Shown in pieces: positions 29,153-52,650 of a DNA stretch of 57,393 nucleotides. The number at the start of each line of letters is the position of its first letter. Position 1 is the stretch's first letter. Source of the DNA: an uncultured Coriobacteriaceae bacterium (GTDB lineage Bacteria; Actinomycetota; Coriobacteriia; Coriobacteriales; Coriobacteriaceae); contig CALUOP010000011.1 in assembly GCA_944322305.1 (NCBI GenBank), forward strand, positions 1 to 57,393, read 5' to 3'. Under the pieces are notes generated by a model that searched no databases, was not told the DNA's origin, and saw nothing but the letters and a program-made list of their open reading frames with translations. Position numbers and translations under genes: made by a program.

Positions 29153-29199
29153 CGTAAGACGAAATGCGCCAAACCAGGTACGGCCTAGTTTGGCGTACG
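29153..29199. repeat. Palindromic element, copy 1 (CGTAAGACG flank)
   Basis: CGTAAGACGAAATG followed by CGCCAAAC, AGG, TACGG, CCT and GTTTGGCG. It is an imperfect palindrome of the family at 29386, 50451, 50591 and 52606. Just to the left (29022-29047) is an ACTCCCGG-type stretch that resembles the palindrome at 44766. Confidence 0.7.
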
Positions 29200-29385: not shown

Positions 29386-29430
29386 CGTCTTACGAAATGC
29401 GCCAGATTAGGCACGGCCTAATCTGGCGCA
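29386..29430. repeat. Palindromic element, copy 2 (CGTCTTACG flank)
   Basis: CGTCTTACGAAA then a perfect 15-bp inverted repeat, TGCGCCAGATTAGGC (29398-29412), a 3-base loop, and its complement (29416-29430). It ends 29 bp from the trpS stop and could end trpS transcripts, though no T-run follows. Confidence 0.8.
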
Positions 29431-50450: not shown

Positions 50451-50623
50451 CCGTAAGACGAAATGCGCCAAATGAGGCCAGGTCTAAATTGGCGCACGTG
50501 GAGAGCTGCGCATAGGAAAAGCATCGCACAGCTGACAAAAGAACCCGAAACAGGCCGTCCTTGTCAGTTGTGCGATGCTTTCCCAAAGGGTGCGCCAAAT
50601 TAGGCACGGCCTAATTTGGCGCA
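50451..50623. repeat. Nested inverted repeats: palindromic element copies 3 and 4 flanking a 21-bp stem
   Basis: Copy 3 (50451-50497, flank CGTAAGACG, imperfect TGCGCCAAAT...TTGGCGCA) and copy 4 (50591-50623, a perfect 15-bp stem, no flank) enclose another inverted repeat: AAAGCATCGCACAGCTGACAA (50518-50538) with its complement at 50561-50581, one mismatch that is a G:U in RNA. All this lies just after the sufB stop and may end its transcript. Confidence 0.75.
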
Positions 50624-50642: not shown

Positions 50643-51611
50643 TTAGGAGAGGAAGTCCTCCAAGATCTGCTCCTCGGCCTCCTCCTCGGTGAGGCCCAGC
50701 GTCATGAGCTTCACGATGGCCTCGCCGGCGATCTTGCCGATGGCGGCCTCGTGCACCAGCTGCGCCTCGGTGGACTTGGCGTCGATGGCCGGGATGCTCG
50801 TCACGCGCGCGTTGTCCATGATGATGGAGTCGCACTGCACGTGGCCGCGGCAGGCGGCCGCACCGGTCACGTTGGGATGGAACACCTGCACGGAGTTGCC
50901 GCGAGCCACCGAGCGGGAGATCACGCGCACCGTGGCGCCGTCGCCCACCATCTCGAAGTCCAGGTCGCTCGTTGCATGCTGCTCGCCGTGCGTCATGAGC
51001 TTCTCGGTGATGACGAGCTTGGCGTCGGCCTCGAGCGTGCCGGTGGTCTTGCGCACGGTGCTCGAGACGCCCTTGATCTGCACCATCTCCATCTCCATGG
51101 AGGCGCCCTCGCCCAGGTGCACCTCGGTGGTGGGGTTCAGGATGCGCGCGCCGGTGCCCTCGCCCTCGCCGTAGTGCTTCTCAACATAGACCACGTGGCT
51201 GCCGGGCTCCAGGAAGAAGCGGTGGATGCCGTCGTGCTCGGCGTCCTTGTCGCCGCCGTTGTGGATGCCGCAGCCGGCCACGATGTAGACGTCGGCGCCC
51301 GCGCCGATGAAGAAGTCGTTGTAGACCACGTCGTGCACGCCCTCCTCGGTCACCACGACCGGGATGTGCACGTGCTCGTTCTTGCAACCCGCGTCGACGC
51401 GGATGTCGATGCCGGGGTTGTCGGTCTTGCTCGTGATGGTCACGTGGTCGGAGTTGGTGCGGCACGCCAGGCACCCGTTCTTGCGGATGTTGACGGCGCC
51501 CTCGGTCTCGCCGTGCATGTCGGCGATAACCTCGAGCATCTCGCGCGAGATGGCGTCGAGGTCGAGCTCGGAGCCGACCTGAGCCGGCGCGACAGCGGTA
51601 TTCTCAGCCAT
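50643..51611 (-). CDS. sufB: SufB/SufD-family Fe-S scaffold protein (SmsB-like)
   Basis: A 322-residue beta-helix scaffold, much shorter than classic SufB (about 480). It keeps the catalytic-type Cys in VQCDSIIM and the Glu in LVHEAAIGKIAGE that match SufB residues used for cluster building. Extra cysteines occur in GCLACR and GCGIHNGG. With SufC upstream and no SufD, SufS or SufU, it fits the minimal SUF-like system (SMS) described from anaerobes. The ATG at 51611 has GGAGG and lies 12 bp after sufC. Confidence 0.9.
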   Translation of the reverse strand: MAENTAVAPAQVGSELDLDAISREMLEVIADMHGETEGAVNIRKNGCLACRTNSDHVTITSKTDNPGIDIRVDAGCKNEHVHIPVVVTEEGVHDVVYNDFFIGAGADVYIVAGCGIHNGGDKDAEHDGIHRFFLEPGSHVVYVEKHYGEGEGTGARILNPTTEVHLGEGASMEMEMVQIKGVSSTVRKTTGTLEADAKLVITEKLMTHGEQHATSDLDFEMVGDGATVRVISRSVARGNSVQVFHPNVTGAAACRGHVQCDSIIMDNARVTSIPAIDAKSTEAQLVHEAAIGKIAGEAIVKLMTLGLTEEEAEEQILEDFLS

Positions 51612-51623
51612 GAGACGGCCTCC

Positions 51624-52391
51624 TTAGTACGACACAGCCTCCGCCGTGCGCGTGAAGGCGCAGGCGGGATCTTGGTTCTTGCTGAACATGAGCGTGGGGT
51701 AGATCTCGTCGCGCGTGCCGCGGCGGGTCACCTCGCCGTCCTTGATCACGATGATCTCGTCGGCCATCTGCATGATGCGCTCCTGGTGCGAGATGATCAG
51801 GATCGTGTGGTCGGGCTGGGTCTTGTGCAGCTCCTCGAAGGTGGCCGTGAGCTTGTCGAAGCTCCACAGGTCGATGCCGGCCTCCGGCTCGTCGAAGATG
51901 GCGAGCTTGGGGTTGCGCGCCAAGATCGAGGCGATCTCGATGCGCTTGAGCTCGCCGCCGGAAAGCGACTTGTCAACGTCGCGGTCCAGGTAGTTGGCCG
52001 AGCACAGCCCCACGGCCGAGAGGTACTTGTTGCACGCGGCCGAGCTCATGCGCTTCTCGCCCGAGGCGATGCGGATGAGCTTGGCGACCTTCATGCCCGT
52101 GAAGCGCGCGGGCTGCTGGAAGCCGTAGCCGATCCCCAGGCGCGCACGCTCGTCGATGGGCAGGTGGGTGATGTCGGTACCGTCGAAGGTGATGGTGCCG
52201 CCCGTGGGCTGCTCGATGCCCATGATGAGCTTGGACAGCGTGGACTTGCCGCCGCCGTTGGGGCCGGTGATGACGATGAGCTTGCCCGGCTCCACGGTCA
52301 GCGAGAGGTCGCGGATAATATCGTGGTCGCGGTCGTCATAGGAGTCCTGCCCCGCCTTGACCGTGTATGACACGTTCTTCAGTTCAAGCAC
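51624..52391 (-). CDS. sufC: Fe-S cluster assembly ATPase SufC (SmsC-like)
   Basis: A 255-residue ABC ATPase. Walker A GPNGGGKST, Q-loop GFQQPARFTG, signature LSGGELKRIEIA, Walker B AIFDEPEAGIDLWS, H-loop ISHQERIM. The DEPEAGIDLWSF block is typical of archaeal and minimal-system SufC rather than of classic SufC. The start is a GTG at 52391 with AAGGGGAG five bases upstream; a longer frame has no support. TATAGT on the minus strand near 52452 may be its -10. Confidence 0.92.
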   Translation of the reverse strand: MLELKNVSYTVKAGQDSYDDRDHDIIRDLSLTVEPGKLIVITGPNGGGKSTLSKLIMGIEQPTGGTITFDGTDITHLPIDERARLGIGYGFQQPARFTGMKVAKLIRIASGEKRMSSAACNKYLSAVGLCSANYLDRDVDKSLSGGELKRIEIASILARNPKLAIFDEPEAGIDLWSFDKLTATFEELHKTQPDHTILIISHQERIMQMADEIIVIKDGEVTRRGTRDEIYPTLMFSKNQDPACAFTRTAEAVSY

Positions 52392-52605: not shown

Positions 52606-52650
52606 CGTCTTACGAAATGCGCCAAATTAAGCACGGCCTCATTTGGCGCA
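52606..52650. repeat. Palindromic element, copy 5 (CGTCTTACG flank)
   Basis: CGTCTTACGAAATG then CGCCAAATTA, GCACGGC, and CTCATTTGGCGCA. It lies directly against the pgi terminator. Confidence 0.75.

Follow-up and report, generated by a model that had tools for sequence, protein, structure and literature searches.

The SUF-like minimal system (SMS) and MIS, a minimal ISC system of IscS and IscU, were reportedly defined in a 2022 paper. Archaeal SMS has been found to assemble and transfer [4Fe-4S] clusters (PMC12192291, PMC12442378, PMC12584684). In M. jannaschii, the SmsC2B2 complex holds a [4Fe-4S] cluster on C218/C239/C242 of SmsC, and, in anaerobic E. coli devoid of both ISC and SUF, the system functions when sulfide is supplied, a desulfurase being reported as not required (PMC12192291). 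The SufB2C2 complex of Methanococcus maripaludis and Methanothermococcus carries its cluster on SufC C218/C237/C240, and the SufB cysteines were described as dispensable (PMC12584684). SmsB2C2 of T. kodakarensis was reported to use either sulfide or an unlinked cysteine desulfurase (PMC12442378). M. acetivorans deleted for both copies of sufCB was reported to be unaffected in growth and Fe-S content; this host also has IscSU (PMC10500019). Among the literature surveyed, the SMS mechanism is known from archaea only, and no biochemistry on the short bacterial SMS branch was found; a search of the open-licence literature returned no paper on SMS in Coriobacteriales. The available part of PMC12803347 makes no mention of SMS, and Collinsella stercoris is listed with SufBD in the available part of PMC8896826.

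The window analyzed here, a stretch of 57,393 nucleotides from an uncultured Coriobacteriaceae bacterium (assembly GCA_944322305.1, contig CALUOP010000011.1), contains the gene pair smsCB (Table 1). A sequence-only reading of this DNA had described a two-gene minimal operon with a short scaffold of 322 residues and no partner gene adjacent, and the locus agrees on each point. The gene for the ATPase, smsC, comes first and is followed on the same strand, after a gap of 12 nt, by smsB, and the neighbours are unrelated: pgi lies upstream, and a HAD hydrolase and an ORF that matches no Pfam family lie downstream. SmsB matches PF01458 (SUFBD_core) at 1.5e-19 and SmsC matches ABC_tran at 1.4e-29, and smsB was the sole PF01458 match in a profile search of the host genome, which is 98.8% complete. 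The two are not a chance pair of ORFs: among 81 loci (the 80 best relatives and the window locus), 76 have smsC no more than 150 bp upstream of smsB. In these 80 relatives the flanks of smsCB, taken up to 6 kb, hold an IscS-like or IscU-like gene in one case and SufD or Rrf2 in none; these counts, with the close smsC-smsB spacing, make the partner-free two-gene layout the rule for the short-SmsB branch. The locus thus has the arrangement expected of an SMS, a two-gene smsC-smsB operon in which SmsB is the sole SufB/D-type protein and SufD is absent.

Table 1. Features of the window and cysteine-desulfurase-type genes of the host genome (positions are those of the window)
Feature	Position	Strand	Description
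smsC	51624-52391	minus	SufC-like ABC ATPase, 255 aa, GTG start, Cys 120/130/244
smsB	50643-51611	minus	SufB/D-core scaffold, 322 aa, Cys 47/50/76/114/254/260, HEA 287-289
33-bp palindromic repeat	29398-29430		
33-bp palindromic repeat	50591-50623		
33-bp palindromic repeat	52618-52650		
33-bp palindromic repeat	near 29165		weaker copy
33-bp palindromic repeat	near 50464		weaker copy
Desulfurase-type gene 1			adjoins yedF; above TIGR01977 cut-off
Desulfurase-type gene 2			adjoins mnmA; NifS-like
Desulfurase-type gene 3			NifS-like

Copies of a 33-bp palindromic repeat, TGCGCCAAAT...ATTTGGCGCA, flank smsCB. This repeat is present at 26 places in the host genome, at 1 in the congener G149 and at 0 in G150 and G151, a distribution that suggests a REP-like element of recent spread.

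The curated NCBIfam cut-offs are reached by neither protein: SmsB scores 57.6 bits against SufB (cut-off 346.4), 51.1 against SmsB (650) and 48.8 against SufD (222), and SmsC scores 142.9 against SufC (212.8). By sequence, the closest solved chain to SmsC is M. jannaschii SmsC MJ0035 (1.2e-45), while the closest to SmsB are M. mazei 4dn7 (4.5e-21) and MJ0034 (7e-16), with E. coli SufB behind (1.3e-9). The AlphaFold2 model of SmsC (mean pLDDT 87.9, about 50 in the low-confidence C-terminal tail that holds C244) fits best to M. jannaschii SmsC 9h7x (Z 30.4, rmsd 1.9, 227 aligned), and its ABC fold also fits unrelated transporters at Z 28. GPNGGGKST, LSGGE and FDEPEAG, which we take to be the Walker A/B and signature motifs, are all present in the window SmsC and show little or no variation across 51 aligned SmsC, consistent with an intact ABC ATPase. 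The SmsB model (mean pLDDT 90.2) has the beta-helix, C-terminal helical hairpin and short N-terminus expected of an SmsB. It aligns with 4dn7 (Z 34.9, rmsd 2.5, 309 aligned), the E. coli SufBCD chain 5awf_B (Z 32.7, rmsd 1.9, 292 aligned) and MJ0034 (9h78_B; Z 30.5, rmsd 2.5, 282 aligned), and listed folds other than the SufB/SufD type reach Z 12.7 at most. Because MJ0034 is itself a chain of 321 residues, a short scaffold is normal for this branch.

Phylogeny against SmsB and classic SufB, the check that the sequence-only reading had proposed, places SmsB outside both the SufB and the SufD clades. In a 30-row tree, which has several long branches and in which both PDB rows are partial, short bacterial SmsB forms a clade (98/93), with SufB (100/100) and SufD (100/100) separate. 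Short bacterial SmsB also stands apart from MJ0034 and from the long form of other families of the class. Classic SUF has SufD together with SufB and SufC; here each of the 4 genomes of the host genus, including the host itself, has one PF01458 gene, the short one, and so has SMS only. smsCB is an SMS-type scaffold operon and not classic SUF.

The operon is not unique, since Clostridia and Eggerthellaceae-like genomes commonly carry operons of about 60% identity. Scanning GTDB contigs gave at least 540 relatives among at least 593 pattern matches, and the best 80, which were kept, include 3 Coriobacteriaceae at 93-96% identity and are mostly Clostridia at 56-61%. Within the order, SmsB of the window type (E<1e-100) was found in 53 of 197 genomes, the listing of which leaves off 15 genomes with no match; within the family it occurs only in 3 genomes of the host genus among the 48 family genomes listed. 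Of 149 genomes sampled from the class, 24 are other members of the same family, and 23 of these have classic SufB and SufD. One member of the family, G146, is 99% complete and shows no PF01458 match, which reflects either an assembly gap or a member with neither SUF nor SMS. Another genome, G094, has a full suf operon and, separate from it at C3:369943-370616, two short adjoining fragments, one of a SufBD core (182-aa frame) and one SufS-like (113-aa frame); these fragments are likely a remnant or a partial second suf locus. A contig titled Prevotellaceae (L029) has an SmsB that falls among Acidaminococcaceae rows and is nearly identical to that of Succiniclasticum, and is probably mis-binned.

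Canonical SufS and canonical SufU scored above cut-off in the same 18 of 30 panel genomes, with none of the 4 host-genus genomes among these, and all 12 without them have window-type SmsB. In 7 of these 12 SUF-less genomes the best IscU-type match, at 61-81 bits, is below the 92.5-bit cut-off; it is directly beside an IscS-like match, and these genomes are therefore read as having MIS. The remaining 5, without an IscS-IscU pair, are the 4 of the host genus and G058. Thus the linked IscS-IscU pair that defines MIS is found in 0 of the 4 host-genus genomes; TIGR01994 gave no match in G000, G149 and G150 and 20 bits in G151. The NifU_N-like proteins of the host genome are divergent, and none is beside a desulfurase in the stretches examined. 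Among 13 genomes, A-type carriers were found in none and an Mrp-type ATPase in all, and the complement of M. jannaschii, as given in the available part of PMC12192291, is the same.

The source of sulfur was addressed through the desulfurase genes of the host. A genome search for sufS, sufU and iscS was also proposed with the sequence-only reading: canonical SufS and SufU are absent, and three cysteine-desulfurase-type genes are present, all unlinked to smsCB (Table 1). A sulfide-only supply would go with a genome free of cysteine desulfurase, which this one is not, and because of the three unlinked genes such a route is not implied. The claim that the bare operon implies a sulfide-fed or unlinked-desulfurase route was therefore too strong, as both routes are left. 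Free sulfide and an unlinked desulfurase are both possible sources of the sulfur used by smsCB.

The key Cys and Glu residues were said to be kept in one protein, and SmsB does contain both the QCDS motif (C260) and HEA (H287, E288, A289), all four residues being invariant in 41/41 aligned SmsB. In a larger set of 111 rows, C114 is conserved in 111, C260 in 111 and C254 in 110. Alignments show C114 and C260 to be common to MJ0034, and C254 to have no Cys counterpart in MJ0034 or 4dn7. Judged by motif and position, C114/C260 would correspond to SufB C254/C405, the equivalence also given for the methanogen protein (PMC12584684). An N-terminal CxxC (C47, C50) was considered as a conserved cluster site and rejected, as it is restricted to the host genus (7/111 rows, representing 4 genomes). 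It reads CLAC at residues 47-50 and is present in 4/4 genomes of the genus.

In SmsC, C130 and C244 are invariant in 108/108 bacterial rows, among which three genomes of the host genus may be counted twice. The SmsC tail has one Cys in 72 of these rows, two in 27 and three in 9, and a C-terminal CxxC in 0/108. For C120, one alignment shows Cys in 79/79 rows and a second places it at position 120 in 33/33 Coriobacteriales rows and at 121 in 75/75 others; the two disagree because the Firmicutes rows are one residue short, and C120 may be read as one invariant Cys when a one-residue gap is allowed. In the window SmsC, K217 stands opposite the residue taken as MJ0035 C218, and the methanogen-type ligands (C218, C237/239, C240/242; CXnCXXC) are absent. 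As methanogen C218 has no counterpart here and the C-terminal CxxC is missing too, the cluster site must be at least partly unlike that of methanogens. The C-terminal Cys region is reported to vary among SmsC (PMC12192291), for which reason the methanogen motif was not treated as defining SMS.

The gene pair, its family, the predicted folds and the genome complement make it probable that the product of smsCB is an SMS-type Fe-S scaffold of two subunits, the only recognized scaffold of the SUF, ISC or SMS kind in the host genus. By homology to archaeal SMS, the beta-helix protein SmsB would dimerize and bind one SmsC ABC ATPase per C-terminal helical hairpin to give SmsC2B2, on which a cluster would be assembled from iron and sulfide. 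ATP binding and hydrolysis by SmsC would then reset the complex for transfer of the cluster to apo-proteins, either directly or via the Mrp-type ATPase, which is considered as a possible carrier because no A-type carrier was found. An additional scaffold is possible, because the host genome encodes two divergent NifU_N-like proteins. The harmless sufCB deletions of M. acetivorans (PMC10500019), albeit in a host that has IscSU, and the missing CXnCXXC motif also weigh against the scaffold reading. More tentatively, and with some doubt on our part, short-SmsB bacterial SMS might represent a third kind of SUF-family scaffold. Its clade-specific invariant Cys (SmsC C120/C130/C244 and/or SmsB C254 with C114, C260 and H287/E288) would build the cluster in the SmsB dimer or between SmsB and SmsC, in contrast to methanogens, where the site is in the SmsC tail, and to SUF, where it is a SufB-SufD site, and this SMS would be the sole canonical scaffold of the host genus, without IscU or SufU.

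Family relatives possess sufCBDSU, and smsCB could in principle be what was left of such an operon, sufB and sufC, after loss of sufD, sufS and sufU. SmsB, however, is 25-35% identical to family SufB over the matched part and SmsC 31-36% identical to family SufC; SmsB groups with Clostridia and Eggerthellaceae-like SmsB, and its score against the SufB model and its place in the 30-row tree oppose a position in the SufB clade. On these trees and model scores the remnant explanation was dropped as very improbable. The housekeeping scaffold could instead be another protein, either an IscU-like protein paired with a GGGtGRT protein, or a NifU_N-like protein whose gene lies close to a purB-like one, in which case smsCB would be accessory, serving repair, transfer or only some targets. 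We regard this as quite unlikely. In all 8 family SUF loci examined, Rrf2-sufCBDSU and the IscU-like/GGGtGRT pair share one stretch of 13-19 kb, and the host genome has the pair without any adjoining suf gene. The NifU_N-like protein scores 46.8 bits, over the Pfam cut-off, and the tolerance of M. acetivorans to sufCB loss (PMC10500019) also fits an accessory role. Against this, the IscU-like and NifU_N-like proteins score 56.4 and 26.3 bits, far under the NCBIfam scaffold cut-off of 187.9, and the pair is not a SUF replacement, because genomes that keep full SUF have it too. The pair itself (L238 8316-10121; L224-L228, L234, L236 and L237) is possibly Fe-S-linked.

If smsCB is taken as an SMS scaffold, its origin can be read in two ways. 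The host genus may have acquired SMS from Clostridia or other Firmicutes in replacement of SUF, or it may have retained SMS from a Coriobacteriales ancestor. Acquisition is supported by the Clostridia homologues of about 60% identity among the best 80 relatives, and forcing the host genus to the Firmicutes side of the SmsB tree is rejected weakly (p-AU 0.043). In the same tree, however, the host genus groups with an SMS and SUF genome from another family of the order (98/94), a sister relation that may be overstated because long branches meet, and the Coriobacteriales set that contains it is split from Firmicutes at 100/100. In the rpoB tree, which includes all but one host-genus genome that had no rpoB match, the host genus branches as sister to all other family members, which group at 99/96. 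Family SufB groups, against rpoB, with that of a different family in the order, and holding the two sister families together in the SufB tree is rejected (p-AU 1.6e-4). Because the family SUF genes disagree with the rpoB tree, SUF seems more mobile than SMS, and acquisition of SMS from Firmicutes is unlikely. Most simply, SMS would be old in the order and retained by the host genus, the rest of the family having acquired SUF; loss of SUF in the host genus also fits.

At first sight smsCB is an ordinary pair for anaerobes, and what makes it noteworthy is the clean SMS-only genome and the unexplained Cys pattern. In this widespread branch of gut bacteria, the cluster site known from archaea cannot be intact. 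With SMS and neither SUF nor canonical IscU in the host genus, and SUF and no SMS in its sister genera, the host genus is a natural experiment on how lineages swap Fe-S machines and on whether SMS alone suffices, a question left open by the M. acetivorans deletions (PMC10500019).

The closest described system is the SMS of M. jannaschii (MJ0035/MJ0034; PDB 9h78/9h7x/9h7y/9hbl), which shares with smsCB the two genes, the short SmsB with equivalents of SufB C254/C405 and HEA, the SmsC ABC ATPase and the lack of SufD. It differs in that its SmsC binds the cluster through C218 and a C-terminal CxxC (C239/C242), in place of which the window SmsC has C120/C130/C244, and in that the window SmsB has the extra, near-invariant C254. 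Methanogen SufB2C2 is likewise a two-component scaffold without SufD, and its SufC Cys motif is missing from the window SmsC. The Thermococcus kodakarensis SmsB2C2 is again two-component and free of SufD, but its SmsB is of the long type, described as 430-450 residues (PMC12442378), compared with 322 here. Within the 30-genome panel, MIS accompanies SMS in 7 of the other 8 genomes that lack SUF, and it was not found in the 4 genomes of the host genus. The classic SUF of the family, sufCBDSU with a divergent Rrf2 regulator, shares the SufBD core and the SufC-like ATPase with smsCB, whereas the smsCB locus is without SufD, SufS, SufU and Rrf2, and canonical SufS and SufU are absent from the host genus altogether.
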